Below, one piece after another: positions 47,020 through 63,221 of a DNA stretch of 64,000 nt (position 1 is its first letter; each line of letters begins with the position of its first letter). The stretch covers positions 124,001 through 188,000 of the forward strand of contig JAILWG010000001.1 in the NCBI GenBank assembly GCA_025699075.1. The letters are read 5' to 3'. The stretch is from Candidatus Nitrosopumilus sp. Its GTDB lineage: Archaea > Thermoproteota > Nitrososphaeria > Nitrososphaerales > Nitrosopumilaceae. The notes under the pieces are model-generated. The model did not search any database, was not told where the DNA came from, and saw only the letters and a program-made list of their open reading frames with translations. The position numbers and the translations under genes are program-made.

Positions 47020-47523
47020 ATGTCTACGTTACTAGAAAAACAAATCAAAGTTAATCGTATTGTTACGACAAATATTGGACAAGCACGTGCAATTGAAGAC
47101 CCTGCACGAGCAAAAATTGTTGAAATTCTATACCATCAAGCATTATCTGCAGACCAAATTTCGACTGCTCTAAAAAAGACTGGATACAAAAAAGCACTTA
47201 CAACAGTCCGTCATCATTTGGAAATTTTAAAAGAATCTGGGCTAATTGAAATCGCAAGAATTGAAGAATCTCGTGGTGCTATCACTAAATTCTATAGCAC
47301 ATCGACAAAATTGTTGGATTTTCAGACTCCTGAGGATTTTGATTCAACATATTCTAAAATCATCAACAATACCTCAACAAAGATTGAAAAAATTCTCAAA
47401 GGATTGACGCCAAAAACCACAAAATCAAAGGGTAAAAAGTCCGAGGACTATTCTCAATACCTCGTAATGGAGATAATGAACAGGGCAATGACTAATGTTC
47501 TTGAAAAATCCAGTACAAAATAA
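47020..47523 (+). CDS. ArsR-like winged-helix transcriptional regulator
   Basis: 167 residues. ARAIEDPARAKIVEILYHQA, the recognition helix TVRHHLEILKESGLIEIAR and a wing (GAITKFYSTS) are typical of ArsR/TrmB-like winged helices. The tail is helical with a basic KTTKSKGKKSED linker. Tandem operator-like repeats lie upstream. The signal is unknown. Confidence 0.88.
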   Translation: MSTLLEKQIKVNRIVTTNIGQARAIEDPARAKIVEILYHQALSADQISTALKKTGYKKALTTVRHHLEILKESGLIEIARIEESRGAITKFYSTSTKLLDFQTPEDFDSTYSKIINNTSTKIEKILKGLTPKTTKSKGKKSEDYSQYLVMEIMNRAMTNVLEKSSTK

Positions 47524-47671
47524 TAATTAGAATGGAAATGTTGAATCAATCAAAACCGATCAGGTTATTTTTTGTGCAAAATGAAAAAATGAGCAAAAAA
47601 TACTCTAAAAAGTCATTTTTTGTTGTTGGTAATGCAAAATTATTAACAGCAAAATTGACAGGTGAAATTTG

Positions 47672-48076
47672 ATGGATGAGAAAGCAATCAAACTTTTTTC
47701 AGAAAAAAATCTCGTTTACATTGCGACAGTAATGAAAGACGGTTCCCCTCAAGTCTCCCCAGTGTGGGCAAACTATGATGATGGATATATTCTGGTAAAC
47801 ACTGCAGAAGGAAGAATAAAACACAAAAATGTTTTACGTGATCCTCGAGTTGCAGTTTCAGTAGTATCCAAAGACAATCCTCTTGACATGACAACAATTC
47901 GTGGAACTGTTGAAGAATTAATTCCAGATTATGAATACAAACATGCAGACAAACTAACTTTACAGTACATGGGTCGTGATCATTATCCTTTCAAACGTGA
48001 TGATGAAAAAAGAATTATTCTAAAAATAAAACCTTACAAAGTTTTCGTTCTTCCCGAGCTGAAGATGAACGAGTAG
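47672..48076 (+). CDS. Pyridoxamine 5'-phosphate oxidase-like flavin protein
   Basis: 134 residues from ATG 47672, preceded by GGTGA. LVYIATVMKDGSPQVSPVWA, ILVNTAEGRIKHKNVLRDPR and VAVSVVSKDN match the PPOX split-barrel family that uses FMN or F420 with small substrates. In this lineage F420 is present, so an F420-dependent reductase is plausible. Substrate unknown. Confidence 0.9.
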   Translation: MDEKAIKLFSEKNLVYIATVMKDGSPQVSPVWANYDDGYILVNTAEGRIKHKNVLRDPRVAVSVVSKDNPLDMTTIRGTVEELIPDYEYKHADKLTLQYMGRDHYPFKRDDEKRIILKIKPYKVFVLPELKMNE

Positions 48077-48087
48077 TAATTTAAAAT

Positions 48088-48111
48088 GTTTCTAAATTCG
48101 AATTTAGAAAC
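48088..48111. repeat. 24-bp palindrome, copy 1 (perfect)
   Basis: GTTTCTAAATTC followed directly by GAATTTAGAAAC: exactly self-complementary. It is between the PPOX-type gene and the histone-like gene, both of which end here, so it is not an ordinary promoter site. Confidence 0.92.
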
Positions 48112-48158
48112 ATAATACATTCAGTAGGGTGAATTAGAAAAAAGATAGCATAGACAGC

Positions 48159-48554
48159 TTAACGTCGACGTTTAGCTGCCTTTCTCTTTGGAGCGGCTTT
48201 GCGTGAAGCAGCTTTTCTCTTTGGTGCTGCTTTTCTTTTTGCTGCCTTTCTCTTTGGAGCTGCTTTTTTAGCTGCAGTTTTTCTCTTTGGAGCGGCTCTG
48301 CGTTTTACTGCTGCCTTTCTCTTTGGAGCTGCTTTTCGTTTAGCTGCAGTTTTACGTTTTGGAGCGGCTTTTCTTTTTACTGCTTTTCTCTTAGGTGCTG
48401 CACTTGCTGCATTTTTCCTACGAGTTGCTGCTGCCTTTCTCTTACGTGCTGCTGCGGCTTTTAATGCTTCAGCTGCTTTTTTAGCTGCATTTCTCTTTCG
48501 AGTTCTTGCTGCTTTTTTAGCTGCTTCTGCTCTTTTGGCTTTAGATACTGCCAT
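48159..48554 (-). CDS. Histone H1-like Lys/Ala/Arg-rich DNA-binding protein
   Basis: 131 residues, almost only Lys, Ala, Arg and Pro, with about ten APKRKAA-type units (for example KRKAAPKRKTAAKRKAAPKR). It resembles the C-terminal tail of eukaryotic histone H1 and bacterial HU/AlgP tails. It should bind DNA by charge and compact it. No globular domain is present. The repeated DNA may recombine or mutate readily. Confidence 0.85.
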   Translation of the reverse strand: MAVSKAKRAEAAKKAARTRKRNAAKKAAEALKAAAARKRKAAATRRKNAASAAPKRKAVKRKAAPKRKTAAKRKAAPKRKAAVKRRAAPKRKTAAKKAAPKRKAAKRKAAPKRKAASRKAAPKRKAAKRRR

Positions 48555-48656
48555 GACTTTTTGCGAAAATCATCTGTGTTATATGGTAAAAGTCACACAT
48601 TACTAAGCAGTATATAGAAAAATTTGACACTTTTTTTAATTTTAAAATTTTTACGA

Positions 48657-49142
48657 TCAGCAATTTGTAATGCAAATCAAAGCTGTATCAACAGTTGACT
48701 GATCTTTTTGTGGACGAATAATTATTTTGTATTGTTTGTCTTCATCAAATGGAATATCAAACTGTGTAGTTCTCTCAATTGCTTGATTTGGTTCTAACCA
48801 TTCTAGCAACAAGTCTTTTGATGAAAATTCGCCATAAACTGCTTCGTGTTTTTGTTCTTTTTCATCAACAATGTATAATTGCCCTCCTGAAAAGAGAGTT
48901 TTTTCATCTCCTATGTTTTTTGCAGTAATTCCAATCTTTACAAACGTATTTTCAGGCACAACTTCTTTGCTTCCCTCAAATGTTCCCTCAAATGTTATTG
49001 TATATTCTACAGGTCCGACAGTTACTTTTTCTCCTACTGTTGACTCTATGAAATTTGTGGTATATTGTGTATACATAAAATTCGCAATTATCATTGAAGC
49101 TATAATTGCACCAATTACAATTACTACTCCGACCCTTGCCAT
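48657..49142 (-). CDS. Membrane-anchored DUF4352-like protein
   Basis: 161 residues. An N-terminal anchor (VGVVIVIGAIIASMIIANFM) precedes a beta-sandwich (VKIGITAKNIGDEKTLFSGG, LYIVDEKEQKHEAVYGE, EWLEPNQAIERTTQFDIP) that fits the DUF4352 surface domain. Two Cys close the chain (ALICITNC). Function unknown. Confidence 0.72.
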   Translation of the reverse strand: MARVGVVIVIGAIIASMIIANFMYTQYTTNFIESTVGEKVTVGPVEYTITFEGTFEGSKEVVPENTFVKIGITAKNIGDEKTLFSGGQLYIVDEKEQKHEAVYGEFSSKDLLLEWLEPNQAIERTTQFDIPFDEDKQYKIIIRPQKDQSTVDTALICITNC

Positions 49143-49552
49143 AAATAGTCTGAAATAATTTTGGTATATAGTTGAAACGCACTAATTTATGCCCAAAACC
49201 CTACTATTTTGAACAAATTTGGGATCATTTTTTGATATTTTGTACTATCGCAAAACAGACACAGAATTAACTAGTAATTTGTTTTAGAATATCTGATCAG
49301 GCCTTGAGACAAATTCGTCATTGTTCTCTGTCTCTTGGTTTTTGATCCTTTTTTAGTCTGATTGTAATTCATCAGACACACACAGCATTATCTACTAATT
49401 TGTTATAGTGTAATTGAACAAGCCTTGAGACTGTTTTAGTCATTAATTATATTCTCGAGGTCTGTTCTTTTTTTTGCGATCTAGTTATGTTTGTCATAAT
49501 TTCATCTGACGCACAGTTATTCTTTTATTTCCCATGTTTGGGATTTGTAGCA
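49143..49552. other. Gene-free stretch with two imperfect direct repeats
   Basis: No supported gene. It contains two copies of a roughly 100-base sequence (49256-49352 and 49373-49475) and, towards the end, the promoter of the secreted-protein gene. Confidence 0.55.
49256..49475. repeat. Imperfect direct repeat, about 118-base period
   Basis: Both copies open with CAGACACA, continue with CTAxTAATTTGTT, hold GCCTTGAGAC (49301-49310; 49422-49431) and GTCATT, and end in a TCTxTTCT or GATCC word followed by a T run. The ends resemble archaeal terminators, so the copies could be two small RNA genes. Confidence 0.68.
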
Positions 49553-50083
49553 ATGAAGACAGTACTTTATGGCTCAATTTTAGCTGCTGTATTTGCAATT
49601 TCAATTGTAGGTACAGCATTTGCTGCAGGCCATCTAACTATCGTCTCCAGCTCAGTTGATGACGAGGATAGAAGCGCAACAATTGAAGTTTCTAAAAACG
49701 TCAATAGCGGAAAACCAGGTGCTTATGGATTTGGTGTTTTTGCTGAAAACGGAGTAGTTGCATTGACCACTCATGCTGGTGCAGATGATAGTAAAAAACA
49801 AGGAAATGATCCTTCAGGAGCTTGGCACACTCATCTTGTCACATTAGCTGAATCTGATATTTGTGCAAGTGGATTAAACGTAGATACCGCAACCTTTGAA
49901 GATGTTGCTACTCAAAAAATCAAAAACAAAACAATTGAGTTGACAAACATTGATGAGGCAGCAGGTACATTAACTGGACCTACTGTTGCATTCACTCTTT
50001 CATTCGAATCCGATGAAAGTGAACCACCAGTAACTCATGTTTGTGTCAATCCTACTTCAATTAATCCCCCACCTGAAGAATAA
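49553..50083 (+). CDS. Secreted protein of unknown function
   Basis: 176 residues from ATG 49553; upstream in-frame ATG has no signal-peptide logic. Signal peptide about 1-25 (YGSILAAVFAISIVGTAFAA). The mature part is beta-rich with a HAGADDSKKQGND, GAWHTHLV stretch and two later Cys (SDICASGL, THVCVNP). The His residues could bind metal. Family unknown. Confidence 0.72.
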   Translation: MKTVLYGSILAAVFAISIVGTAFAAGHLTIVSSSVDDEDRSATIEVSKNVNSGKPGAYGFGVFAENGVVALTTHAGADDSKKQGNDPSGAWHTHLVTLAESDICASGLNVDTATFEDVATQKIKNKTIELTNIDEAAGTLTGPTVAFTLSFESDESEPPVTHVCVNPTSINPPPEE

Positions 50084-50117
50084 TCTCATTTTTTCTTTAT
50101 TTTTTTACTAAAATTTA

Positions 50118-50294
50118 GGGGGTTTAGCTTTTACGCACGACTCTAAAAGATCATACTCCTTTAGCTGGGAGAGCTTGGTGGAATTAGGGTTGCATATTGT
50201 ATCCAGGCACAAGTGTTAAACCCCCCATCAAAACGCCTGATTTTGAAAATTTCACATTGTGCTCAAAGATACTAATTTTCAGGGGGGGTTTAAC
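50118..50294. other. Competing stem element built on GGGGGTTTA and TAAACCCCC
   Basis: GTTAAACCCCCC (50215-50226) pairs perfectly over 12 bp with GGGGGGTTTAAC (50283-50294), or over 11 bp (one G-T) with GGGGGTTTAGC (50118-50128). The two pairings exclude each other, as in a switch or attenuator. AACGCCT is repeated at 50232 and 50292. Confidence 0.6.
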
Positions 50295-50320
50295 GCCTAG
50301 GCTTGATTTTATAAAATTGA

Positions 50321-50476
50321 TTATTTTAGAAAATTTTCCGACATCATGATAATCCCATCCAAAATTTGTGAAAATACATTGGATGTAAACAATCTGAATT
50401 GATCAAATATGCTATTTGTGGATTCAAATGACTCATTTATTGCAGTCTCGCTAATTTGTAGAACTGAATTTATCAT
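50321..50476 (-). CDS. Possible 51-residue helical microprotein
   Basis: An ATG frame (INSVLQISETAINESFESTN, then IFDQFRLFTSNVFSQILDGI) gives one amphipathic helix. There is no context or recognised motif; it may be chance. Confidence 0.3.
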   Translation of the reverse strand: MINSVLQISETAINESFESTNSIFDQFRLFTSNVFSQILDGIIMMSENFLK

Positions 50477-51140
50477 GTTTAATTTTGACTACCTTTTGTT
50501 TTTACTGGTTGCTTGTCCATTTGGACACACATTTGATGTGAAATAAGGGGGGGTTTAGAAGAAAAATTTGCACAAAGTCCTGTTTTCTAGATGTTTTTTA
50601 TTGGAATTCTCTTTTTCTTTCTTTTGATGTAAATGATGACAGGTTCCCTAAAATGCCCATTTTTAGGGAATTCTACTTCAATTCTTTATGGACTGTTTTT
50701 ACAATGTAATGTACTGCCAAGGCAAGCCCAATCATTTTAAAGATATTATTCATTTGATTGAACCTCTCTTACTTCATATGTTTCAAGAATCTCGTCTATC
50801 ATTTTGAGGATATTCAATTTTGAATTGCCTCCAATGTCATGGTTGTGTTTTCAAGTTGTAGTTTGTTTACTCTGATGCTGACATTAATCTCGTATTTTTT
50901 TGTCGCATGTCTGAGCATGATGTTGAAGGCGTTCATTTTATAAACACCACCAAAGTTGCAATTAAGGTTAAAACAAATACCTTGTTTTTTGAAGCCTTGA
51001 ATCTTAGGATTTGGCTTTCTATGAAACCTGCTTTTGGTTTACATATTGTTGTATATTTTGTAAATTTTGTTGTTTTCATACTGTATGATGGTGAATTTAT
51101 GATAAAAGGTCCGCGTAGAACTGATAAATCATCTATTTTT

Positions 51141-51590
51141 CTAAAATGTTTTCAATAAAAATCTGGCCGTTTTATCATATTTTTCAGAAACACTATCGAT
51201 GGCCTCAAGCATTGTCTGTTGATTGATGTTCTCTTTGTCATCTAAAACAACGTAGACTCCTACTTTCTGCTTTCCATCTTCTGTGATGATTTTATTTATT
51301 GCCTGAATAGAATAGCAAAAATCTGCTACTTTTTTCTCAAATTTTTCCTTTTCTTCAGGACTAAATCCTAAATATCTTGCAATTTGATTATTTTTCATTA
51401 CTACTTTTGCACCAATCACAAGAATTCCAGGTTGTCCTTTTGGCTCAAATATGTCTACAGGAATACCTGACTGTCCTGCATGCTTTACAAGAATTTGGAA
51501 ATTGTTTTCAGGATTTTTTACTTCTTCAAAAGAAAGCCCTTCGTGAATTACCCATCTCTCAACATTGTCCCTCATTCTAGATGTGGTCAT
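51141..51590 (-). CDS. DUF2299-type protein
   Basis: About 149 residues (start at MTTSRMRDNVERW; ATG 51599 and a TTG are further options). VERWVIHEGLSFEEVKNPEN and the later VYVVLDDKENINQQTML fit DUF2299, a small two-domain archaeal family of unknown role. Palindrome copy 2 lies 67-90 bases upstream. Confidence 0.78.
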   Translation of the reverse strand: MTTSRMRDNVERWVIHEGLSFEEVKNPENNFQILVKHAGQSGIPVDIFEPKGQPGILVIGAKVVMKNNQIARYLGFSPEEKEKFEKKVADFCYSIQAINKIITEDGKQKVGVYVVLDDKENINQQTMLEAIDSVSEKYDKTARFLLKTF

Positions 51591-51656
51591 AGAAAACATC
51601 TCCAACTAGTTCTATATGATTCTAAATCCAATTGATTCATGTGCTAAATTTATAAT

Positions 51657-51680
51657 GTTTCTAAATTCGAGTTTAGAAAT
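51657..51680. repeat. 24-bp palindrome, copy 2
   Basis: GTTTCTAAATTC plus GAGTTTAGAAAT; two changes from the perfect palindrome. Lies between the DUF2299 gene and the 51716 gene. Confidence 0.9.
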
Positions 51681-51715
51681 AATAATAACTATCACCTAAA
51701 AAGCAAGTTAATTCA

Positions 51716-51943
51716 CTATATGTTTACATTAAAACCCGAATCTAAATCCGGAATTGTTACTGCAATGAAAATGTTCAGAATTATTCCGATTATCATGAAC
51801 ACAATTCCAAGGTAAAGGCAATTTCTTGCTTTATGTGGATCATCTTGCCGTAAAATGAAAAATGCTATTATTCCTCCAATGACTCCAAAAAAAATTGGTA
51901 ACAAAAACCATGCGTTACTTCTTGTTTTTTCTGAATATGTCAT
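51716..51943 (-). CDS. Two-span membrane microprotein
   Basis: 75 residues with spans FLLPIFFGVIGGIIAFFIL and LYLGIVFMIIGIILNIFIA, and a short loop between (RQDDPHKARNC). The RQDDPxKARNCLYLG pattern is typical of short DUF4190-like/TM2-like archaeal proteins. Function unknown. Confidence 0.7.
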   Translation of the reverse strand: MTYSEKTRSNAWFLLPIFFGVIGGIIAFFILRQDDPHKARNCLYLGIVFMIIGIILNIFIAVTIPDLDSGFNVNI

Positions 51944-51954
51944 GATGAACTCTC

Positions 51955-52203
51955 TTATTTTGCAACTATTGCTTTTTTCTGTAATTGTGTGATTTCAATT
52001 TCCACAGTCTCTAATGGATCCTCTACCTGATTACGCCTTATTGAAAACATTTTTGGTTTTTCAAAGTCCTCTGTACAATCAGGACATGCATATACCAGTA
52101 CCCTGTGCTCATTTGGTGCCTTTGGATTTGATAATCTTGGGTAATACACCAGTCTTGCTCCACAATCAACACAATATCTGTTGGCCCTTCTAGTTCTGAC
52201 CAA
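51955..52203 (-). CDS. Zinc-ribbon-like small protein
   Basis: 82 residues, start TTG. CVDCGARLVYYP and YACPDC give a four-Cys zinc site, and the start is very basic (VRTRRANRY). It may contact RNA. It is 11 bp upstream of the membrane microprotein, so likely cotranscribed. Confidence 0.72.
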   Translation of the reverse strand: MVRTRRANRYCVDCGARLVYYPRLSNPKAPNEHRVLVYACPDCTEDFEKPKMFSIRRNQVEDPLETVEIEITQLQKKAIVAK

Positions 52204-52293
52204 TGTAAACCTCCTGCATTATTCTTAATGTGCGATCATCTATTAGATCTAAGTTGTCTAATAGAGTAAACAAATTACTAACAACCGATCAAT

Positions 52294-52317
52294 ATTTCTA
52301 TATTCGAATTTAGAAAC
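52294..52317. repeat. 24-bp palindrome, copy 3
   Basis: ATTTCTATATTC plus GAATTTAGAAAC; the right half is exact. It is about 90 bases upstream of the zinc-ribbon gene. Confidence 0.9.
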
Positions 52318-52364
52318 ATTATAAATTTAGTATCTTGATTAATCGTTTGCTATACAAATAGAAT

Positions 52365-52388
52365 GTTTCAAAACTCGAGTTTAGAAAT
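52365..52388. repeat. 24-bp palindrome, copy 4
   Basis: GTTTCAAAACTC plus GAGTTTAGAAAT. It lies 6 bases beyond the 3' end of tRNA-Asn, where a transcript end or a recombination site would be expected. Confidence 0.88.
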
Positions 52389-52394
52389 AAGAGC

Positions 52395-52467
52395 GCCTCC
52401 CACCAGACTTGAACTGGTGACCAACCGGTTAACAGCCGGTTGCTCTACCACGCTGAGCTAGGGAGGC
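52395..52467 (-). tRNA. trnN: tRNA-Asn (GTT)
   Basis: 73 bases with a perfect 7-bp acceptor stem (GCCTCCC/GGGAGGC), D-arm GCTC...GAGC, anticodon arm ACCGG-CTGTTAA-CCGGT with anticodon GTT, and T-arm ACCAG-TTCAAGT-CTGGT. No CCA is encoded and there is no intron. It lies 6 bases from palindrome copy 4. Confidence 0.98.
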
Positions 52468-52538: not shown

Positions 52539-52826
52539 TTAGTTGAATTTGGCAAAAAACTCTTTGATTTCTTTTGCATGACTTTCAACTAGTTCGATAA
52601 TTTCTAGATGCTCATCAGCTGTTGGTTCACGTTGATGAACAATTTGAAATGCACTTAGTGCGGAACCTACCATCTCTCCGACAAAAAACCCACACAAAAA
52701 ATCCCCCACATTTCCGCATTCCCAAGTCTCGCCTATTCTTGGTGATGCTCCTGCAGATTTGTACAGCTCTAATGTTTGTTGAATTAAATCTGTTGTTTGT
52801 TTTGAAAATTCAGGATCTAGAGTCAT
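52539..52826 (-). CDS. Conserved hypothetical protein after the ribosomal operon
   Basis: 95 residues, mostly helical, with two Cys (ETWECGNVGDFLCGFF) and an acidic C-terminus. No known family. It is 15 bp downstream of the L6 gene, so it is likely the last gene of the ribosomal transcript. Confidence 0.65.
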   Translation of the reverse strand: MTLDPEFSKQTTDLIQQTLELYKSAGASPRIGETWECGNVGDFLCGFFVGEMVGSALSAFQIVHQREPTADEHLEIIELVESHAKEIKEFFAKFN

Positions 52827-52841
52827 TTGAAAATTGGGATT

Positions 52842-53399
52842 CTATTTGTCTATGCCTTTTTTCTTTTCAAATGAATAAATTCCATCCAGGAAAACTCTAT
52901 GATCTTTGTTTTTTACTTTGGATTTTAGTTCAATATTTGCTGCAGTTTGAGTGATATCTGTCCATACATGTCCTGTAAGAATTACATCTTCTCCTTTAGG
53001 TTCAACTTTGGTATTTCCAACAATGTGTGTGATTCTTGGAGCTCGTTCTCCTTGGAAGTTTTCAATTAGAACATTTTTGCCCTCTACCTTTACTGTGATT
53101 GGAAAGTGAGAAAACACTAATTTCATTTTGATTGTATAGCCTGTTACCAAGCCTTCACAAATGTTTCTGATGATTGATCTTGCAGTGTGAAGAATTGCAT
53201 AGTCTCTTTTTTTCTGATTGATTGCAGTTAGTATGATTTTGCCTTCGTTTACTTGTACGTTGACTGGGATGTCTCTAAAACTTTTGTGTGTTTTTCCTAG
53301 CGGTCCTACAAATGACAGCATGTGTTTGTTTACTGTTACTGTGACTCCTTCAGGAATGTCTACTTGGTTTGTGAATTCTTCTAGTTGCTTAGTAGACAT
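52842..53399 (-). CDS. rpl6: Ribosomal protein L6
   Basis: 185 residues. The archaeal L6 start VDIPEGVTVTVNKHMLSFVG and the later VWTDITQTAANIELKS identify it. It binds 23S rRNA near the factor-binding site. It overlaps S8 by 11 bp. Confidence 0.96.
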   Translation of the reverse strand: MSTKQLEEFTNQVDIPEGVTVTVNKHMLSFVGPLGKTHKSFRDIPVNVQVNEGKIILTAINQKKRDYAILHTARSIIRNICEGLVTGYTIKMKLVFSHFPITVKVEGKNVLIENFQGERAPRITHIVGNTKVEPKGEDVILTGHVWTDITQTAANIELKSKVKNKDHRVFLDGIYSFEKKKGIDK

Positions 53400-53781
53400 A
53401 TCCGATTAAAAATCCTCCAATTCCTTTCTCTGATGCTTCGTGATGGGACATGACTCCTTGGTTTGTTGTAACAAGAAGCATTCCTCTGTCATATGCTGGC
53501 AAGTATTGTTGCTCCCAACTATTGTATTCGTCATTTTTGACTTTGAATCTTGGGGAAATTGCACCACATTTGTTGATTTTTGCTAATAATTTAATTTTGA
53601 ATTTTCCGCCTCTTTTATCGTCTATATGTTCAAATTCTCCAATATAACCGTCTTTTTGGAGTGTTTTTAAGACTTCAATACCTAATTTTGAAGTTGGAAG
53701 AATAACACAGTCTGATTTTCTTCTGGCTTCATTGTTGTATAGTGTGACAAATAGATTTGCTAAGATGTTTGTTGCTGGCAT
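53389..53781 (-). CDS. rps8: Ribosomal protein S8
   Basis: 130 residues: NILANLFVTLYNNEARRKSD, FKVKNDEYNSWEQQYLP and the C-terminal GILLVTTNQGVMSHHEASEK with IGGFLIGYVY are S8 traits. It binds the 16S central domain. Confidence 0.96.
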   Translation of the reverse strand: MPATNILANLFVTLYNNEARRKSDCVILPTSKLGIEVLKTLQKDGYIGEFEHIDDKRGGKFKIKLLAKINKCGAISPRFKVKNDEYNSWEQQYLPAYDRGMLLVTTNQGVMSHHEASEKGIGGFLIGYVY

Positions 53782-53787
53782 GTTATC

Positions 53788-53967
53788 TCACTTATTTTTC
53801 CTGAACCCTAAAGATGTTGCGACTTCTCTGAAACATCGTCTACATAGCATTAAATCATATTTTTGAATCACTGCGGTATAATCTCCACATCTTTTACACC
53901 ATCTTGAACCTCTACCAAAGTCATGCTTTTTTCTACCTGTTGCTTCATAGGATCTGTCTTTTGCCAT
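53788..53967 (-). CDS. rps14: Ribosomal protein S14 (zinc-binding, short)
   Basis: 59 residues. Four Cys in WCKRCGDYT and LCRRCFREV form the zinc site of the short archaeal S14. The start is GRKKHDFGRGSR. Its start overlaps the L5 stop by one base; S8 starts 6 bp beyond its stop. Confidence 0.95.
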   Translation of the reverse strand: MAKDRSYEATGRKKHDFGRGSRWCKRCGDYTAVIQKYDLMLCRRCFREVATSLGFRKNK

Positions 53968-54488
53968 TATGTTACGGTCACTCCAAATTCTTTTGCTAGA
54001 TAATCTTTTGCTTCTTGGCTTTTAATAATATGGTTTTTTCCAACTCTTGCTTTGTGTTTACTTCTGGTTCTGATTCCAAATCCTGGTCTTGTTAATGTAA
54101 TGGAAATTCCAAGACCTAAAATTCCTATTTGAGGATCATATTTTACACCTGGTATATCGATATGCTCATTAATTCCAAATGAGAAATTTCCAAAATTATC
54201 AAAGGATTTTCCATTAACTGTGTTTCCTTTAGCTTCGAGCAGTCTTTTTAGTAAAGCAACAGCATCATCGCCTCTGATTGTCACTGCCACTCCAATTGGC
54301 TCTCCTTTTCTGACTCCCCAATCTCTGTATGCTTCTTTTGCATTACGTGTAGATGGTTTTTTTCCAGAGATTTGCTCTAGTGCTTTTGTTGCAATGTTGA
54401 TGACATCTCCAGATTTACCTAAACCCATGTTTAAGACAACTTTCTCTAAAGAGATTTTTTTCATTGGGGATTCTGTTACTTGAGACAT
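53967..54488 (-). CDS. rpl5: Ribosomal protein L5
   Basis: 173 residues. KISLEKVVLNMGLGKSGDVI, KKPSTRNAKEAYRDWGVRKG and FSFGINEHIDIPGVKYDPQI are archaeal L5 signatures. L5 contacts 5S rRNA and the P-site tRNA. It is 4 bp from S4e. Confidence 0.97.
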   Translation of the reverse strand: MSQVTESPMKKISLEKVVLNMGLGKSGDVINIATKALEQISGKKPSTRNAKEAYRDWGVRKGEPIGVAVTIRGDDAVALLKRLLEAKGNTVNGKSFDNFGNFSFGINEHIDIPGVKYDPQIGILGLGISITLTRPGFGIRTRSKHKARVGKNHIIKSQEAKDYLAKEFGVTVT

Positions 54489-54492
54489 AAGA

Positions 54493-55209
54493 TCACTTTA
54501 ATTGAATTATTGGCTCCTCTTTTCCAATTGGCATAATGATGTCTGCAGGAATTTCAATTTTTCTGTCTTCTAGTGCAAGTATGACTCTTTTTGGAAGGAT
54601 GAATGTTCCATCTTCTATGGCTTCTATTTTACCAATTTGTCCTGCGTTGTTTCCACGTGTAACTAAACCCTGACATCCTGTTTCTAATTTTATTACTTCA
54701 ATAATTTTTTGTTCTGGAACTTGTATTAGACAAGTATCTCCAACATTTACTTTAGTATCTGAAATGATTGAACGTCCGTCATGAAAACCAATTTGTAATT
54801 TTCCTTTGTTTATTGTTGTTTTTGTGGTTACTCTGACAAGTTTTTTTGATTTTTCTGATTCATTAATTTTAATTGGTTTTAACAACTTGTCTTCTGTTGG
54901 AACTAGACGATATACATCTGAAACATCTTGTAGTTCTACAACATCCATTAGTCCTATGGCGTGATGAAGTGATTTTCGTACAACTCCATCAATTTTTACT
55001 CTTCCGGAATAGATTGCAGCTTTTGCTTCTCTTAAACTAGTAACTATGTTTAACATGTCTCTGAGAAATACTGCTGTTGGAACAGAATAGTTCTTTTTAT
55101 GTGGACCTGGTTTTACTGTAATTACAAATCTCTTGTCTTTTCTGGTAATTCCCCAGAATTGTGGGGCCATTTGACGTTTGAGTTTTTTACTACCTGAAAT
55201 GCTTACCAT
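54493..55209 (-). CDS. rps4e: Ribosomal protein S4e
   Basis: 238 residues. A protein found in archaea and eukaryotes, not bacteria. An S4-like domain (MLNIVTSLREAKAAIYSGRV) and a KOW-type tail (GLVTRGNNAGQIGKIEAIED) are visible. Confidence 0.97.
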   Translation of the reverse strand: MVSISGSKKLKRQMAPQFWGITRKDKRFVITVKPGPHKKNYSVPTAVFLRDMLNIVTSLREAKAAIYSGRVKIDGVVRKSLHHAIGLMDVVELQDVSDVYRLVPTEDKLLKPIKINESEKSKKLVRVTTKTTINKGKLQIGFHDGRSIISDTKVNVGDTCLIQVPEQKIIEVIKLETGCQGLVTRGNNAGQIGKIEAIEDGTFILPKRVILALEDRKIEIPADIIMPIGKEEPIIQLK

Positions 55210-55661
55210 TATTCCTTATCTCCTTCTTTTTTGGACTTTTCTACTCCTTTTGTTTCTTTAGGAGTCTCTTTTGTTGATTCAGATTTAGTTTCTGTCTTTG
55301 GTTGCTTTCTTGGATCTTTTCCTTCTAATTTAGAAATTCGCCATTTGTCTTCACTGTTAAGTGAAGTGACCACTAGATTGGATGTGTGAATGTAAACATC
55401 AAATTTATCTCCCTTTGTCTTTTCTTTCTTTACCCCTTCAATTGCAACACTGCTTTTTTGGGTGGATACTTTGGCTATTTTACCATCCACTCCTTTGAAT
55501 TCTCCTCTGAGAATTTTGACCGAATCTCCTTCAATGACTCTTACACTTCTTTTACCATATTTTTTATGTAGTTCTTTTGAAAGTGCACTTCCAAGCTGTT
55601 TACTTTTTGTTTGGTATGTTGCCTGATAAATCAAATTGTTGCGCATTTTTGTTGGTTTCAT
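55209..55661 (-). CDS. rpl24: Ribosomal protein L24
   Basis: 150 residues. The KOW motif [22 protein letters not shown] is clear. The last 45 residues are a charged Lys/Glu/Thr tail ([20 protein letters not shown]) that is longer than usual and probably disordered. Confidence 0.96.
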
Positions 55662-55665
55662 TTTA

Positions 55666-56088
55666 TTATACCACCATTGATGCCAAGTTAGCTACTCTTG
55701 GCCATTTTTCTGAAGCTTCTGCTGCTACTGGCCCTTTGATGTCTGTTCCTTTGGTTTCTCCTTCTGGGGTGATAAGCACTGCTGCGTTATCTTCAAAACA
55801 AACTCTTACACCGTTTAATCTTCTAACTGCATATTTTTGTCTAATGATCACTGCTCCATAAACTTGCTTTCTTAATTCTGCTGGACCTTTCTTTACCACG
55901 ACGTTGCAAAAATCACCAACAGATGCTGATGCTAGTCTTGATGATCTAGTGTGGTGTCTTGGAACATTGATTACTTCTAAAATTTTAGCCCCAGAATTAT
56001 CTGCACATACAATATTTGCACCAATTGGAATTACTTTGGTTACATATGGGCGGAATTCTTCTACTCCTTTTCCTGCTTGCTTTGCCAT
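55666..56088 (-). CDS. rpl14: Ribosomal protein L14
   Basis: 140 residues. [20 protein letters not shown] and [20 protein letters not shown], with [20 protein letters not shown], identify L14, a core 50S protein near the intersubunit bridge. Confidence 0.97.
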
Positions 56089-56411
56089 TATGCCTTAACC
56101 TCCACAACAACATATGATACAGATTTTGATATTGGTCTGCATTCTGCAGTCAACACGTGATCTCCTGCTTCAACATCTATACATCCTGGCACATGTGCAT
56201 GAATTGTACTTGTACCTCTGGCATATCTCTTAAATTTACTAAAGTAAAGTGGTGCATCTTTCTGTAATGTGATGGTTTGTTTTGCTTTGCTTCCTGTTAC
56301 TTTGCCATCAAAGAGTTTTCCTCTAATTGACAAGCCTCCGTGGAATGGACAATGCTTATCTTCACATTCTCTTGTTGGCTCTTTTACTTTCAATCCTATA
56401 TTTTGAGTCAT
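56088..56411 (-). CDS. rps17: Ribosomal protein S17
   Basis: 107 residues. An archaeal-type S17: DKHCPFHGGLSIRGKLFDG and KAKQTITLQKDAPLYFSKF, then YARGTSTIHAHVPGCIDVEA. It starts inside the Rpp29 stop (4 bp overlap). Confidence 0.96.
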   Translation of the reverse strand: MTQNIGLKVKEPTRECEDKHCPFHGGLSIRGKLFDGKVTGSKAKQTITLQKDAPLYFSKFKRYARGTSTIHAHVPGCIDVEAGDHVLTAECRPISKSVSYVVVEVKA

Positions 56412-56674
56412 GCCTTTCCTCCAATTCTATCAAATGGTCTTTTTGCAATTTTGGTACCTTCTACCATTATCTCTTTTCCCCCAATTGTAAATTTCCAATT
56501 GTTTGTAGACTTTGCAATTGTTTTTGAACCTTTTTCTGTACTAATTGTAAACATTGATTTTGTTTCATTGATGATTCTTCCATTTAATCCTATTACTTGT
56601 GGGTTAGTGGATTGGATGATTTCTGTGTTTAATCCAATAAATTCATGGGATTTTATGTTGTCTGCAGTAATCAT
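56408..56674 (-). CDS. rnp1: RNase P protein component 1 (Rpp29/Pop4)
   Basis: 88 residues. HEFIGLNTEIIQSTNPQVIG and LNGRIINETKSMFTISTEKG match archaeal Rpp29, a subunit of RNase P that helps trim tRNA 5' ends. Its place between L29 and S17 is conserved in archaea. It overlaps both neighbours by 4 bp. Confidence 0.93.
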   Translation of the reverse strand: MITADNIKSHEFIGLNTEIIQSTNPQVIGLNGRIINETKSMFTISTEKGSKTIAKSTNNWKFTIGGKEIMVEGTKIAKRPFDRIGGKA

Positions 56675-56877
56675 TTCTCTCTCCTCATTTCATTTAATCT
56701 GGTTAGCATTCTTGCAATATCATGACGTATTGGTTTTAGTTTACCACTTTCTTTTCTCAATGTTCCTTTGGAACCATCAATTCTAAGTTTGGCAAGTTCG
56801 CTGCGTGACTCGACAATTTTGCTTTTGAGATCTTTTTCATTTAATTGTTTTATTGTCTTCATGCTGAGTCTGGTCAT
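56671..56877 (-). CDS. rpl29: Ribosomal protein L29
   Basis: 68 residues, a small helical protein: [20 protein letters not shown] and [20 protein letters not shown], then [19 protein letters not shown] are the L29 pattern, sited near the exit tunnel. Overlaps S3 and Rpp29 by 4 bp each. Confidence 0.95.
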
Positions 56878-57662
56878 TTCAAGTGGGCCTCCTCTTCTTC
56901 AAGTGTATCTAATCCTTCCATCTTCTTTGCTTCCAATGCAATTCTTTCAGATTCTGATCTAGCTTTGTCTTTTTTCCCTTCTACTTTGACAACTTCAATT
57001 TTAGCACCTTCAATTTCAATTTCTTCTATTCTGATTTTTTCTTCCTTTGCTTGTTTTGCTTTGATTGCTTTTTCTGTTCTCATTTCAAATTCTGGAATGA
57101 GTTTTTCTTTTCTGGCAATTCTAATTCTAATTCCAATTAATCCCATTGCAGTCTTTACGTGAGCAATGTCTTCATCTACAATAATTTCCGCATGATGTCC
57201 TGCTCTTGGTAAAATTCCTTGAGTGTGTTTTTCAAATGCTGAACGATCTCCTCTGAGTTTTCCTGATATTGTAATTTGAACGCCCATAGCTCCTCCTTCC
57301 ATAATTTGTTTTAATGTCCACATGGTTGCTCTTCTAAAAGCTGTACCTCTCTCCAAATGTGATGCCATTCTATTACACATTACACTTGGTGCAAGCTCTG
57401 GTTTTTCAATTTCAACTACTGAAATTTGCGGATTCTTTAATTCAAAGTCTGTAGCTAGTTTATCTGTCAGTGCTCTAATACCTGAACCTTTTCTACCAAT
57501 AACTATTCCTGGTCTTGTTACATGAAGTGCAACTCTTGTTCCGACAGGGGTTTTTGAAATTTCTGCATGTGAAAAACCTGCATCTTTGATTGCTTCTCTA
57601 AGATAGTCTTTGAGTAGCATCATGTTGTAGTTATCTTTAATTACATTTTTGACTGCTGACAT
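56874..57662 (-). CDS. rps3: Ribosomal protein S3
   Basis: 262 residues. The KH domain ([20 protein letters not shown]) and the C-terminal [20 protein letters not shown] are S3 hallmarks. A 50-residue acidic/basic tail extends beyond the core. Confidence 0.97.
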
Positions 57663-57664
57663 TT

Positions 57665-58123
57665 CTAAATCTCCTTTGCCACCAATTCCACATGTGTTAA
57701 TACATTGTTCTTTGGAGTTGCTCTTCCCATTGCTCTTGGGATGAATCTTTTAACGATCACTCCTTTGTGAACTGTTGCATTTACAATTCGTAATCTGTCC
57801 AAGTCCATTCCTTTGTATTCTGCGTTTGATTCTAAATTATCTAAAACTTTGATAAACTCCTTTGCTGTTTTTTGTGGATATCTTCCAGACATTACTCCTG
57901 GGTCGGGTCTATGTCCTACTTGATTTTTATATCTTCTAAATGGTACTGCTCTATCTTTGTTGGAAACTGCAATTAGATAGTCTCTTGCTTTCTCAATGGA
58001 TAATCCTTTGATTGATATTGCAACTTCACGTGCATGCTTGTGTGAAATGTCTTTTTCTCTTAGTGAAGAACGAACATGTCTCGTTGGATCGTAATTTTGG
58101 AAAGCGTAATTGAATCTACCCAT
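57665..58123 (-). CDS. rpl22: Ribosomal protein L22
   Basis: 152 residues from ATG 58123 (a GTG at 58132 adds three). [20 protein letters not shown] and [20 protein letters not shown] identify L22, which lines the exit tunnel. It lies 2 bp before S3. Confidence 0.95.
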
Positions 58124-58128
58124 AACAA

Positions 58129-58524
58129 TCACTTCAATGGCACGTAGAGACTGGATCTTGATGCACCAACTCCAGGTGCACCGTGTGAAACTCTCTTGTT
58201 TGTTATCACATATTCTCCCAAATAATGTCCAATCATTTCAGATACAATTGAAACTGGTTGGAATTCTTTTCCAGAAAATACGTTTACTGTAACACCTACC
58301 ATGTATGGTAGAACAATCAAATCTCTAACATGTGTTTTGATAGGATTCTTTAATTTTCCTGCTTTTGCAGATTTAATTTCCTCAATTAATTTTCTTTTTC
58401 CGTCAGTAATTCCTCTTGTAAGTGATCGTCTTTGTCTGGAATTAAATAATAAGAATAATTTTTCTAGGGATAAACTGTCTAGTTCCTCTTTTGGAATGCC
58501 TCTGTATAAAAATTCTTTAACCAT
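58129..58524 (-). CDS. rps19: Ribosomal protein S19
   Basis: 131 residues: RGIPKEELDSLSLEKLFLLF, RSLTRGITDGKRKLIEEIKS and the late VSEMIGHYLGEYVITNKRV are archaeal S19 traits. It is preceded by L23 with only 47 bp between, where L2 usually sits. Confidence 0.96.
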   Translation of the reverse strand: MVKEFLYRGIPKEELDSLSLEKLFLLFNSRQRRSLTRGITDGKRKLIEEIKSAKAGKLKNPIKTHVRDLIVLPYMVGVTVNVFSGKEFQPVSIVSEMIGHYLGEYVITNKRVSHGAPGVGASRSSLYVPLK

Positions 58525-58571
58525 TTCTCTTCTTCTCCTCTGTTAGTGTACTTCGAGTTTTATGGTCCATA

Positions 58572-58838
58572 TTATAGCATTCCTATCTTTGTTGCCAAAT
58601 CTCTGGCTTTTTCGGTATTTTCAAACTGAACAAAAGCTTTTTTGCCATAAATTGTTCTTGCAGTGTTAACTTTTTTGACATTTTCTTTGTAAAGTATTTT
58701 CACTGCTTCTGAAATTTCTGTTTTATTTGCAGATCTCTCTACTATGAAACAAATTTTACTTTCATTTTCAACCATTGCAAAGGTTTTTTCTGTAATGTAT
58801 GGTTTGATGATTACTTTCATTGCTTGATCTACGTTCAT
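58572..58838 (-). CDS. rpl23: Ribosomal protein L23
   Basis: 88 residues. IIKPYITEKTFAMVENESKI and NVKKVNTARTIYGKKAFVQF identify L23, at the tunnel exit and a docking site for SRP. It starts inside the L4 stop (ATGA overlap). Confidence 0.95.
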   Translation of the reverse strand: MNVDQAMKVIIKPYITEKTFAMVENESKICFIVERSANKTEISEAVKILYKENVKKVNTARTIYGKKAFVQFENTEKARDLATKIGML

Positions 58839-59647
58839 TGTGTTTTCACCATAACCTCCAAATGTGTTGATTTTATTTTTCCAATTTCTTCAATTGCTGA
58901 TTTGGAATACACTGTTAATCTAATTGGATCTGAACCTGGTGCCAAATCTAAGACGCTTAATTCTTTAACACTTCTTACTTCTACTCCTGGAATTGCACCA
59001 ATTGCTTTTGACAAGTTAGAAGAATCTGCAGTTACAAAGAGTACGCTTTTTCCTACTTTTTTACTTCTGCCTCTGAGTCTTGATTGTCCTGAACGTGGTT
59101 TTCTTGCATTTAGTCTCTTGACATCTTGTGATAACTTCAATGAATCTAAAACTTTAGTAATTTCACTTGCTTTGGAGATTGATTCAATGTCATCTGATAC
59201 TATGATTGGGAATGATTCAATTCCGTCTATTTTGTGACCTCTTAATTCAACTAAATCTTTAGATGCTGTTGCAGCAATTGCTGAACATAATGCTAATTTG
59301 TTTTCTTTTTTGTTTAGTTTCTTGTAAATTACTTTTTCAACAATTGGTGGATGTGCTTGTCTACCGCCTCTAGTTGATGCAACTTCTGCTCCTTGACCTT
59401 GTCTGCCACCGCCACCGCCCTGCATTCTTGCAACACGAGATACACCTTGACCTGTTGGAGGATCATTTGAATCTGCAACAACATCCATACCTGCCATTGG
59501 CTTTCTTCCCTGTCTCTGGAATTTATGGGATGTTAAATTAGTGAAAGCTTTGTGAATTAATTCTCTTCTAAATGGAGTTGAGAAAATAATTGGAAGTTCT
59601 ACTTCAACATCCTTTGTTCCATTTGTTGTATATGCTGTGGTCTTCAT
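58835..59647 (-). CDS. rpl4: Ribosomal protein L4
   Basis: 270 residues of the archaeal/eukaryotic type. The loop RMQGGGGGRQGQGAEVASTR with GGRQAHPP is the typical tunnel-facing extension. It follows L3 and overlaps it by one base. Confidence 0.97.
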   Translation of the reverse strand: MKTTAYTTNGTKDVEVELPIIFSTPFRRELIHKAFTNLTSHKFQRQGRKPMAGMDVVADSNDPPTGQGVSRVARMQGGGGGRQGQGAEVASTRGGRQAHPPIVEKVIYKKLNKKENKLALCSAIAATASKDLVELRGHKIDGIESFPIIVSDDIESISKASEITKVLDSLKLSQDVKRLNARKPRSGQSRLRGRSKKVGKSVLFVTADSSNLSKAIGAIPGVEVRSVKELSVLDLAPGSDPIRLTVYSKSAIEEIGKIKSTHLEVMVKTQ

Positions 59648-60642
59648 TATACTACAACCTCCAAAATGTTTGGTTTGTTAATTTTTGCTGGCGCATTTCT
59701 AATTTGACTTCTTAACTTGATTAATCTCTTGTAAGTGCCTGGAACTGAGCCTTTAAGAATAATGAAATCTCCTTTTACTAATCCAAAGTGTTTGTAACCT
59801 CCTTCGGGATTGATTTTAATTTTATCTGATTCTGTGTTGCCCATGATTAGAATTCTTTTATCATATTCTATTCTTTGATGAAATCCAGTCTGTCCTGCTC
59901 TTGGAACTGTATACATGACACTCTGTGGTGAGATTGGACCAAGTGAACCTACTTCTCTAACTGTTTTTCTTGATTTGTGTTGTTTCTTTTTAACATTCCA
60001 TCTTCTCATTACACCTTGCCATCCGTGACCTTTAGTAATTGCTGCAACATCTACAGTTGCTCCTGTTTCAAAAATTTGATCAATTTTGATTTCCTTTCCT
60101 AATGATTCTTTAACATGTGCAAATTGTTTCTCGATATCTCCTCCACTAACCATTGCCTCAAAAATATATGGTTTCTTCATTTCTAATCCTGCGGCTCTTG
60201 GAGATACTGCAACAATTGCGTAAATCTCTTTAATTTTTCTTAATCTTGATTCTGCATTTTCGATTGAACCTGCAATGTTTTTAATTGTAATTTCTTTTGC
60301 AATGCTTTTTGGAATGTCTTCTGCATAGACATCAAACTCTGCATGTTTACCATCATGATCCTTTGAATATCCTCTAATTCCTAAAATCAAAACTGGCGGA
60401 GTAACGAGTACTGTTCCCAGACTAACTAATTGTTTACCTGCGTTAGGAACTTTGTCACGATCATCAATACTGACAACTTGAACACATCCTGCTTTGAAAC
60501 CACAGTGTGCTAAAATTTTTGGCTCATCAGTTGCAGATAGTTTTGGCCATGCTCTTATTCTTGCCTCCATGCTTTTTGCACGAACTCTTGGTGAATATGC
60601 AAGACTTCCTCTACGTGGTTGGTGTCGTTTTCGAGCTCCCAT
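59647..60642 (-). CDS. rpl3: Ribosomal protein L3
   Basis: 331 residues of the archaeal type: GARKRHQPRRGSLAYSPRVR, the GHGWQGVMRRWNVKKKQHKS loop near the peptidyl-transferase centre and GQTGFHQRIEYDKRILIMGN. It is the first ribosomal protein of the operon. Confidence 0.97.
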   Translation of the reverse strand: MGARKRHQPRRGSLAYSPRVRAKSMEARIRAWPKLSATDEPKILAHCGFKAGCVQVVSIDDRDKVPNAGKQLVSLGTVLVTPPVLILGIRGYSKDHDGKHAEFDVYAEDIPKSIAKEITIKNIAGSIENAESRLRKIKEIYAIVAVSPRAAGLEMKKPYIFEAMVSGGDIEKQFAHVKESLGKEIKIDQIFETGATVDVAAITKGHGWQGVMRRWNVKKKQHKSRKTVREVGSLGPISPQSVMYTVPRAGQTGFHQRIEYDKRILIMGNTESDKIKINPEGGYKHFGLVKGDFIILKGSVPGTYKRLIKLRSQIRNAPAKINKPNILEVVV

Positions 60643-60735
60643 GATTAAAACGAATCATCGAATTCCCTCTATTAAACCCTGTGAGATATCGTTAACCACT
60701 AAAAAAATTAAGGTTAACCAACTGTGCCTAATTTG

Positions 60736-60846
60736 TTATGGTGAAAATAATTCTGATATGGAATTCCAAATTGTATAACCTCCGATAATGATCCCTGTAG
60801 CTCCTAAACCTATTGCTAATAATAAAAAATTTTTTTTTTCAGCCAT
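60736..60846 (-). CDS. 36-residue single-span membrane microprotein
   Basis: MAEKKNFLLLAIGLGATGII then IGGYTIWNSISELFSP: a Lys start, one hydrophobic helix, and a short outer tail. The start is 6 bp after the upstream methyltransferase stop. A run of ten A/T bases makes the reading frame sensitive to sequence errors; in the other frame the protein would be nonsense. Confidence 0.62.
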   Translation of the reverse strand: MAEKKNFLLLAIGLGATGIIIGGYTIWNSISELFSP

Positions 60847-60852
60847 GTCTGA

Positions 60853-61659
60853 TTAGTTTTGAGCATTAATTATTGCTAAAGTGCCAAGAAGTGCTTCTTC
60901 TAGACGTACTGTTTCAGTAGCCTGATTTGGAAAAAAATTCAACGATTTGGCATTTTGAACTTTGTTCATCCTTCCTCCTATAATTTCATGAATTCCTTTC
61001 TCAGGAGATCCAAAAACTACTAGTGTTGGTTCATCTGATTTTGCATATTTTGATAACTGTTCATTAGTTACGGGTTTTCCCTTTCTTGATGTTAAAATTA
61101 TGTTTCCTTTCCATTCCGATAACACTGAAAATAAGTTTGCTCTTTCTTTGACCGAATAGCCCCAGTATGATGGAACATCCTTTCTGTCTATCTCTTTGAC
61201 TGACAGTCTTGGATATCCTTCTTTGAATTGAACTGTAATTCTTTTTCCGGTTGACACATTTCCGTAATATTGAATTAACTGATTAATTCCAACATCAACA
61301 AATTTTTTACCCTTCACACTAACCACTATTCCCTCTCTAATGTCTCCCGATTTAATTTTCTTTGAATTTACTGGTGTTATGTGGCTTGGGATTTTTAACG
61401 GATGTAATACTCCTGCAAATTTTAAGTCATTCATTTTTGGGAATAGTCTTCTTCTCAAAAACTGCGGCGTTTCTAAATATTTTAGAATCATTACCATGAG
61501 TGCTCCTTCTGATTTGTTACTGCCTTCTTGATACACATAGATTGTGTCAACTTTAAAAATTGCACAAGCTCTTGCTAGGACTGAAATCTTTCTTGTTTTA
61601 TCTATTTTTAATGATTCGTCTGATAATGCAGACTGTGGAATTGCAACAGATAATTTCAA
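60853..61659 (-). CDS. SPOUT-fold RNA methyltransferase (DUF171/SPOUT1-like)
   Basis: 268 residues. A SPOUT knot is indicated by LVVFGSPEKGIHEI and FFPNQATETVRLEEALLGTL at the C-terminus, while the middle (KSGDIREGIVVSVKGKKFVD) looks like an inserted OB-fold. It fits the archaeal relatives of SPOUT1/C9orf114, which methylate rRNA. Its place before the ribosomal operon is in keeping. Confidence 0.85.
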   Translation of the reverse strand: MKLSVAIPQSALSDESLKIDKTRKISVLARACAIFKVDTIYVYQEGSNKSEGALMVMILKYLETPQFLRRRLFPKMNDLKFAGVLHPLKIPSHITPVNSKKIKSGDIREGIVVSVKGKKFVDVGINQLIQYYGNVSTGKRITVQFKEGYPRLSVKEIDRKDVPSYWGYSVKERANLFSVLSEWKGNIILTSRKGKPVTNEQLSKYAKSDEPTLVVFGSPEKGIHEIIGGRMNKVQNAKSLNFFPNQATETVRLEEALLGTLAIINAQN

Positions 61660-61690
61660 CTTAATTTAATCTCGCAAGTACTTGAAATAA

Positions 61691-62428
61691 TTATTTTTGC
61701 TCGTGTGGATATTTTTCTTTAGCAGAGTTTGCATATTTTGTAATCTGTTCGTCTGATACAAGTTCATACAACCCTGTTTCTTTTTTGATATGTGCCATTC
61801 TGATGTGACTTGTTCCTTCTTTGTCTTCACTTGATAGATAAATTCCTGCAGATGCTAATATTGCTGCGTCATCAAGTGAAAGATCTTGTTTGTATGTTTT
61901 CTCTAAAAAATCCGTTACTTGATCAGAACCAGAACCGATTGCTATTGCATCATAAGAGATGTATGTTCCACTAGGATCGGTTAGATACAATTGTGGCGTG
62001 TTGTTTACAACTCCACCCAGAATCAATGCTACTCCATATGGTCTAACCCCAGCATATTGTGTGTACTGTTGGCATTGATCAGCTAAATGTTTTGCAATTG
62101 TTTCAACTTCGACTGGTTCATCATAAATCATTTTATTACTTTGAGAAAAGAATCTTGCATTGTCTACTTGACTTCTTGCATCTGGAATATATCCTGCGGC
62201 TGCAACTCCTACATGATCATCAATTTGAAAAATCTTTTGAGCGGTATCTGAAATTTGTAATTTTCTTGGTTTTTCTTCCACGGCAATAATAATTCCATCT
62301 TTACATTTTACGCCAACAGCTATTGTTCCTCTTCTTACAGTTTCAATAGCATATTCTACTTGGTATAGTCTACCGTCTGGTGAGAATACGGTGATTGCTC
62401 TATCATAACCTTGTTGTGCAGGAAGCAT
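61691..62428 (-). CDS. psmA: 20S proteasome alpha subunit
   Basis: 245 residues. The gate region QGYDRAITVFSPDGRLYQVE and YAIETVRRGTIAVGVKCKDG is diagnostic of alpha subunits, and the alpha helix H0 is complete. It forms the outer rings of the archaeal proteasome. No beta subunit is present in the window. Confidence 0.97.
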   Translation of the reverse strand: MLPAQQGYDRAITVFSPDGRLYQVEYAIETVRRGTIAVGVKCKDGIIIAVEEKPRKLQISDTAQKIFQIDDHVGVAAAGYIPDARSQVDNARFFSQSNKMIYDEPVEVETIAKHLADQCQQYTQYAGVRPYGVALILGGVVNNTPQLYLTDPSGTYISYDAIAIGSGSDQVTDFLEKTYKQDLSLDDAAILASAGIYLSSEDKEGTSHIRMAHIKKETGLYELVSDEQITKYANSAKEKYPHEQK

Positions 62429-62562
62429 TTGATTGCAATGCCTTGATTATTCAATTTAAACCATGCTCACATTTGATAATCATTCTTACTTTGATCGGAG
62501 CCTATGTTCTTTACCATATTATTAATCAAACCTTAATTTGAAACTGATTTCATTATGAATTC

Positions 62563-62979
62563 ATGAAATTTGAAATAGAGTTTTCAGGCCATGAGAATAT
62601 TCGCTCTAATCATCAAAAAACTATAGAAATTACTAAAGAATCTCACTTGACTCCACAAGGTGATTGCATTGTTGGTGTAAATGCAAAATATAGCTGTGCT
62701 GATTTACCTGAAGAATTAAAAAATAAACTCAAAAACCCTAATTCAACCGTAACTTTTTCAATCAATGTAGGAGATGATTATTTTGTCATTGAAGGAAAAG
62801 GTCATCCTGATCTTATTTTGACACACAATGAAGATATTGTTATTAGAAAAAGCGATTTTATCTGCCCAAGAACACTTGCAGTAAAATGTGACAAGGCATC
62901 TGATTTGATACCTCGTAGTATGGTAAAACAATTACAAGATCCAAAAACTATTGGAACATTTACCATCCATATTGAGTAA
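62563..62979 (+). CDS. DUF371 family protein
   Basis: 138 residues. FEIEFSGHENIRSNHQKTIE and LTPQGDCIVGVNAKYSCADL match DUF371, a small archaeal family of unknown role. Divergent from psmA. Confidence 0.86.
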   Translation: MKFEIEFSGHENIRSNHQKTIEITKESHLTPQGDCIVGVNAKYSCADLPEELKNKLKNPNSTVTFSINVGDDYFVIEGKGHPDLILTHNEDIVIRKSDFICPRTLAVKCDKASDLIPRSMVKQLQDPKTIGTFTIHIE

Positions 62980-63016
62980 CACTCACAATTTTATATGCAA
63001 TGCGTATTTCATAGTC

Positions 63017-63136
63017 ATGGGTCGTAAAACAAACTTTTTCCTATTGATTCCATTAGCAACTTTTGCTGCAATCATCATTGGCTTTGGTATGTATAATACA
63101 ATTTGCAAAAATTCAAACATTCCGATTAATTGCTAG
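63017..63136 (+). CDS. 39-residue membrane microprotein
   Basis: From ATG 63017: MGRKTNFFLLIPLATFAAII followed by IGFGMYNTICKNSNIPINC. One helix, a basic start, and two Cys in the outer tail. The longer TTG frame at 62951 is unlikely as it overlaps DUF371. Confidence 0.6.
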   Translation: MGRKTNFFLLIPLATFAAIIIGFGMYNTICKNSNIPINC

Positions 63137-63221
63137 GTGTCTGTTTCCTTTACACAATTTCCTGTTTTAGTTAATTCTACTTTAGCACGTTTCTCTTAAA
63201 GAAGAAATTGGGTTATTTTTC

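Follow-up and report, generated by a model that had tools for sequence, protein, structure and literature searches.

A conserved cluster of 28-bp palindromes far from the replication origin in AOA: a possible dedicated control or anchoring point on the chromosome

What is the role of four copies of one palindrome that lie, all of them between genes, within 4.3 kb of each other on a Nitrosopumilus chromosome? The cluster occupies positions 48088-52388 of the window, by which we mean the whole stretch of 64,000 nucleotides analysed here. Ammonia-oxidizing archaea (AOA) are among the most abundant cells of the ocean; little is known of how their replication ends and how their chromosomes separate, and the reviews consulted describe no dedicated system for either process. 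A 28-bp site and a ~110-aa protein that are kept over the lineage, as reported below, represent a concrete pair that can be purified. We found no mention of the motif sequence in the literature.

The sites and their neighbours

The initial annotation had reported four palindrome copies, all intergenic and one of them between convergent genes. The copies are indeed present at its coordinates, and their placement is borne out, the one between convergent genes being that at 48088; of the gene-poor 4.3-kb stretch that it described, the part where genes are sparse is mainly 50.1-51.1 kb. The relevant features of the window are:

47020-47523, + strand: ArsR-like wHTH gene, upstream of site D together with the PNPOx-family gene
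47669-48076, + strand: PNPOx-family gene, its stop just before site D
48088-48111: site D, a perfect 24-bp palindrome, 28 bp long with its AT/AT flanks (48086-48113)
51141-51605, - strand: DUF2299 gene (PF10061, 4.7e-23), downstream of site C
51657-51680: site C, upstream of the DUF2299 gene, the start codon being ~52 bp off in many relatives
51955-52203, - strand: gene of a small zinc-ribbon protein, downstream of site B
52294-52317: site B, ~92 bp upstream of the zinc-ribbon gene, with the same spacing in relatives
52365-52388: site A, which does adjoin tRNA-Asn, at 4 bp from its ARAGORN 3' end and not at 6 bp as first annotated
52393-52467, - strand: tRNA-Asn(GTT), adjoining site A

Three of the window copies match the 24-mer with no more than two mismatches, where shuffled sequences lead one to expect none; the fourth, at 52365-52388 (GTTTCAAAACTCGAGTTTAGAAAT), shows one mismatch to the degenerate core. 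The complete site is a palindrome of 28 bp with the consensus ATRTTTCWAAAYTCGARTTTWGAAAYAT and an information content of ~37 bits, a value that is somewhat inflated since the 123 distinct sites behind it were selected by pattern. Site D follows the PNPOx-family stop codon at ~12 bp, sites A and B are separated by 71 bp (start to start), and a TATA-like sequence abuts two of the window sites. Throughout the window genome (7 contigs, 85% complete), all matches with up to two mismatches fall within the 4.3-kb cluster, and a search with the 22-bp core, at up to three mismatches, returns only the four sites and one off-centre match (C4:169074).

Symmetry of the sites

The initial annotation had considered sites of one DNA-binding protein, transcript-end signals, and recombination sites bounding an island, and had raised the possibility that the 48.1-52.4 kb segment is absent from relatives. 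At positions -12, -7 and -3, the two arms of the 123 distinct sites vary independently of each other, which argues for the site of a dimeric protein and not for an RNA stem. Judging from sequence, it is very probable that a single protein binds the sites, a reading with which the independent half-sites, the restriction to one locus per genome and the matching distribution of a candidate protein (see below) are all consistent. If the palindromes were RNA hairpins serving as transcript-end signals, or else the ends of a mobile island, one could understand that site D, as a perfect inverted repeat, has a folding energy of -10 kcal/mol and that one copy adjoins a tRNA gene. However, arm pairing is lost at the variable positions, the fold of site B reaches only -2.4 kcal/mol, and there are just four copies per genome; as to the island, relatives contain the segment in synteny and keep both the gene order and the four sites. 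We give these readings next to no credence, since the pair statistics and the synteny all but refute them.

Conservation across the order

Whether the motif is kept in related genomes was a test set in advance, and it is kept far outside the genus. With up to two mismatches, it is present in 220 of 250 Nitrosopumilaceae genomes, which cover 22 of 22 genera (zero for a control with the pattern written backwards); over the order, it is found in 176 of the 222 genomes that are at least 90% complete, the reversed-pattern control being near zero. The motif-bearing families are f1 (Nitrosopumilaceae), f11 (Nitrososphaeraceae-like), f10 (Nitrosocaldus-like) and f12; in the outer families f2-f9 and f13 the motif was not found, save for one weak match in G282. 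There are usually 2-5 copies per genome, within 1-22 kb wherever the contigs permit, and there they always form a single locus.

Among 20 relatives drawn from several genera, sites A, B, C and D hold their place relative to the same neighbours, and site D, flanked by convergent genes, follows the PNPOx stop at 12-19 bp; the genera that have diverged most retain just two of the four sites. The flanks diverge in relatives whereas the palindrome cores stay constant, and, between families, the neighbour genes and the spacings differ but the palindrome is kept; in G308, one site again lies between convergent genes. The A-B spacing at 37 loci falls into classes of 60-61, 66-72 and 80-82 bp, with none at 62-65 or 73-79 bp; this pattern is suggestive of helical phasing, albeit statistically weak because the loci are related.

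A candidate binding protein

The clusters of families f1, f10 and f11 were compared, and this revealed one shared uncharacterised gene, for a protein of ~110 aa. In the window it is found at

63222-63563, + strand: gene of the candidate site-binding protein, 113 aa, with an HTH-like C-terminus

The gene lies beside, or convergent with, a cdvB/Snf7 (ESCRT-III) gene and is single-copy in nearly all carrier genomes. Its product belongs to no Pfam or NCBIfam family and has no relative in the PDB, by sequence or by fold; the model (pLDDT 82) predicts an all-helical protein of six helices, the last three of which may be read as HTH-like. It is encoded by 176 of the 222 genomes that are at least 90% complete: 171 of the 222 have both motif and protein, 41 have neither, five have the motif only (G135, G282, G298, G323, G325) and five the protein only (G005, G019, G155, G245, G246), a co-distribution that is clumped by clade and hence reflects few independent events. 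Under a looser pattern, G005 displays three sites; G161, G290 and G316 lack motif and protein alike, though they are inside motif-bearing families.

Sites are also found at the promoter of the candidate gene itself. In f10, f11 and f12, the start codon follows the end of a site at 15-39 bp, and in G178, which stands for one genus of the Nitrosopumilaceae, a site overlaps the start region; in Nitrosopumilus, where 11-13 kb separate the gene from the cluster, no clear site is seen at its promoter. As far as sequence comparison can tell, the ~110-aa protein appears to be the best candidate for the binder, and we consider it likely that it does bind the palindromes. The ArsR-like HTH protein (47020) was rejected as the binder owing to its poor distribution; it was not found in G244, which carries sites.

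Position on the chromosome

With orc1/cdc6 (PF09079) as the origin marker, the cluster lies at 0.40-0.49 of the chromosome from it in ~23 single-contig genomes of three families, the chromosome length being rounded for several of them; the distance is 0.43 in G088, 0.47 in G086, 0.45 in G285 and in G297, and 0.49 in G308. A replication origin at the cluster was considered and rejected: orc1/cdc6 lies about halfway round the chromosome from the cluster, and in N. maritimus the origin has been located next to that gene, by ORB repeats and cdc6 (PMC5797428, PMC4164010). The ribosomal spc operon is within ~60 kb of the cluster everywhere, so that the origin-distal position may be inherited synteny.

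An origin-distal set of protein sites brings to mind a Ter-like replication fork trap, where protein-bound sites halt the forks at the terminus. Such a trap would be in keeping with the origin-distal position in all single-contig genomes, with the gene of a small protein beside its own sites, one of them at its promoter, and with gene orientation, for which the cluster is a point of convergence: the best convergent switch within 50-100 kb falls on it or no more than 4 kb from it in 6 of 7 genomes, even if most of the intervals searched had the cluster at their centre and the result for one genome is not significant. The strand composition, however, points elsewhere. In three Nitrosopumilus genomes, both the polar word CTGAT and the T-A asymmetry at fourfold sites reverse 32-54 kb off, on the ribosomal side; in G222, CTGAT shows no flip within 100 kb of the cluster. 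In neither case does strand asymmetry flip at the sites. In addition, the near-perfect symmetry of the sites gives them no obvious polarity. We therefore regard a fork trap as improbable.

The compositional flip was also considered as the place of a hidden dif, and this was rejected: only a tRNA and short conserved stretches are found there. As separate observations, short words are strongly polar in G086, with CTGAT at ~3:1 on the leading side, and such polar words are almost absent in Nitrososphaeraceae; they are possibly a KOPS/ASPS-like feature of Nitrosopumilus. A nearly one-stranded block of ~48 kb that includes ribosomal genes (window 52800-64000 and beyond) points at the cluster, and its composition suggests that it is replicated head-on.

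Comparison with known systems

RTP of Bacillus subtilis is a winged-helix protein, and its Ter sites are imperfect and polar. The locus described here is similar to RTP-Ter in that the gene of a small DNA-binding-like protein lies beside its own palindromes, with a site at the promoter and in an origin-distal position, but it differs by the all-helical model, the symmetrical sites and a compositional terminus that is found elsewhere; searches of Pfam/NCBIfam and of the PDB, by sequence and fold, gave no homology of the candidate to RTP or Tus. Bacterial parS is a site of 16 bp near the origin. With ParB-parS, the AOA locus shares a few palindromes in one chromosomal region, and its outer TGTTTC/GAAACA resembles the ends of parS; on the other hand, the sites are 28 bp long and origin-distal, and the candidate protein is unlike ParB.

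Could the palindromes be dif- or res-like sites of site-specific recombination that resolves chromosome dimers? They resemble archaeal XerA-dif (PMC2958812) as 28-bp inverted repeats in an origin-distal region, their length can be divided into 11+6+11 as in dif, Thaumarchaea are reported to lack xerA (PMC2958812), and each of the 7 Nitrososphaeraceae tested has a serine resolvase gene in the cluster or next to it. Yet dif is a single copy with a defined spacer, whereas these genomes carry not one origin-distal copy but ~2-5 symmetrical ones; copies in cis, inverted as well as direct, on either side of conserved genes would cause deletions and inversions, and the gene order is conserved. The resolvase, moreover, is missing from f1, f10 and f12, and the conserved region upstream of it is a different sequence from the palindrome. 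Recombination of this type appears very unlikely, and the serine resolvase, being confined to Nitrososphaeraceae and furnished with its own upstream region, was rejected as a universal partner. The resolvase genes (PF00239) are found at G297:C1:2097984-2098589 and G308:C1:1505625-1506227, with orthologues in G295, G296, G309, G313 and G314, and their conserved upstream region is res-like.

Two partition proteins of archaea are also relevant. SegB of the Sulfolobales SegAB system is a ribbon-helix-helix protein whose sites, TCTAGA-S-TCTAGA, are spread over the chromosome and mostly intragenic (PMC12284271, PMC5120986). Its sites and ours are alike in being archaeal palindromes with one set at the promoter of the partner gene; ours, however, are confined to one locus, mostly intergenic and unrelated in sequence, as ATRTTTCWAAAYTCGARTTTWGAAAYAT does not conform to the SegB consensus (PMC12284271), and a candidate that is predicted to be all-helical and matches no Pfam family does not look SegB-like. 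AspA of pNOB8, a plasmid-borne winged-helix protein in an operon with ParB/ParA, provides another parallel, as a small HTH protein of a partition system that binds, upstream of its own gene, a palindrome of 23 bp (PMC5120986).

Local operators or a chromosomal hub?

The main rival is a purely local transcription regulator: the sites would be ordinary operators of the same or another HTH protein, autoregulated, with a few targets clustered by chance. The fixed distances to start codons (~92 bp from site B to the zinc-ribbon gene, ~52 bp from site C to the DUF2299 gene), the site at the candidate protein's own promoter in other families and the TATA-like sequences that abut two sites all speak for such operators, which we regard as a real possibility. 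Nevertheless, the targets other than the candidate protein itself differ by family while the sites are kept, site D and one site of G308 lie between convergent genes, and no site occurs at ordinary positions elsewhere in the genome. Hence, given the convergent-gene sites and the changing neighbours, the sites do not all lie at the promoters of a conserved target set.

Since gene partners change between families and some sites lie between convergent genes, we prefer a role that depends on position and acts at the level of the chromosome to a purely transcriptional one, and the sites look like a dedicated control or anchoring point on the chromosome and not like ordinary promoters; a fork trap in the strict sense, recombination of the dif type, transcript ends and a mobile island are all disfavoured. 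Thus, the following scenario can be envisaged, where protein-site binding, cooperativity and the chromosomal role are what we infer. A single dedicated protein, for which the ~110-aa HTH-like one is the most likely candidate, would occupy the four palindromes as dimers. Bound to the 2-5 origin-distal sites, with the A/B pair at near helical-turn spacing, the protein could assemble a local nucleoprotein complex, most likely used for chromosome maintenance as a centromere-like, terminus-organising or division-anchoring point, and it would autoregulate its own gene via one of the sites. Taken as a whole, this combination of a chromosome-maintenance hub with autoregulation is our tentative preference, with a chance that we put not far below even. 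The broader proposal, that AOA possess a chromosome-anchoring system of their own, unrelated to SegAB, ParABS, MatP or Xer, which consists of a new ~110-aa family and origin-distal 28-bp palindromes and is genetically linked to an ESCRT-III division gene, appears to us rather doubtful.

Other features of the region

The zinc-ribbon protein is 88-99% identical over most of Nitrosopumilaceae and less so in those genera that diverge most. Between site B and its gene, the leader (52204-52293) is unusually conserved in sequence from genus to genus. Adjoining site D, positions 48159-48554 (- strand) encode a Lys/Ala-rich protein of 131 aa, similar to a histone H1 tail, that is missing or diverged in many relatives. 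Finally, the non-coding stretch 50209-50302 contains a long inverted repeat, GTTAAACCCCCC ... GGGGGGGTTTAAC, possibly a small RNA or a terminator, and parts of this stretch are identical in two other Nitrosopumilus genomes.
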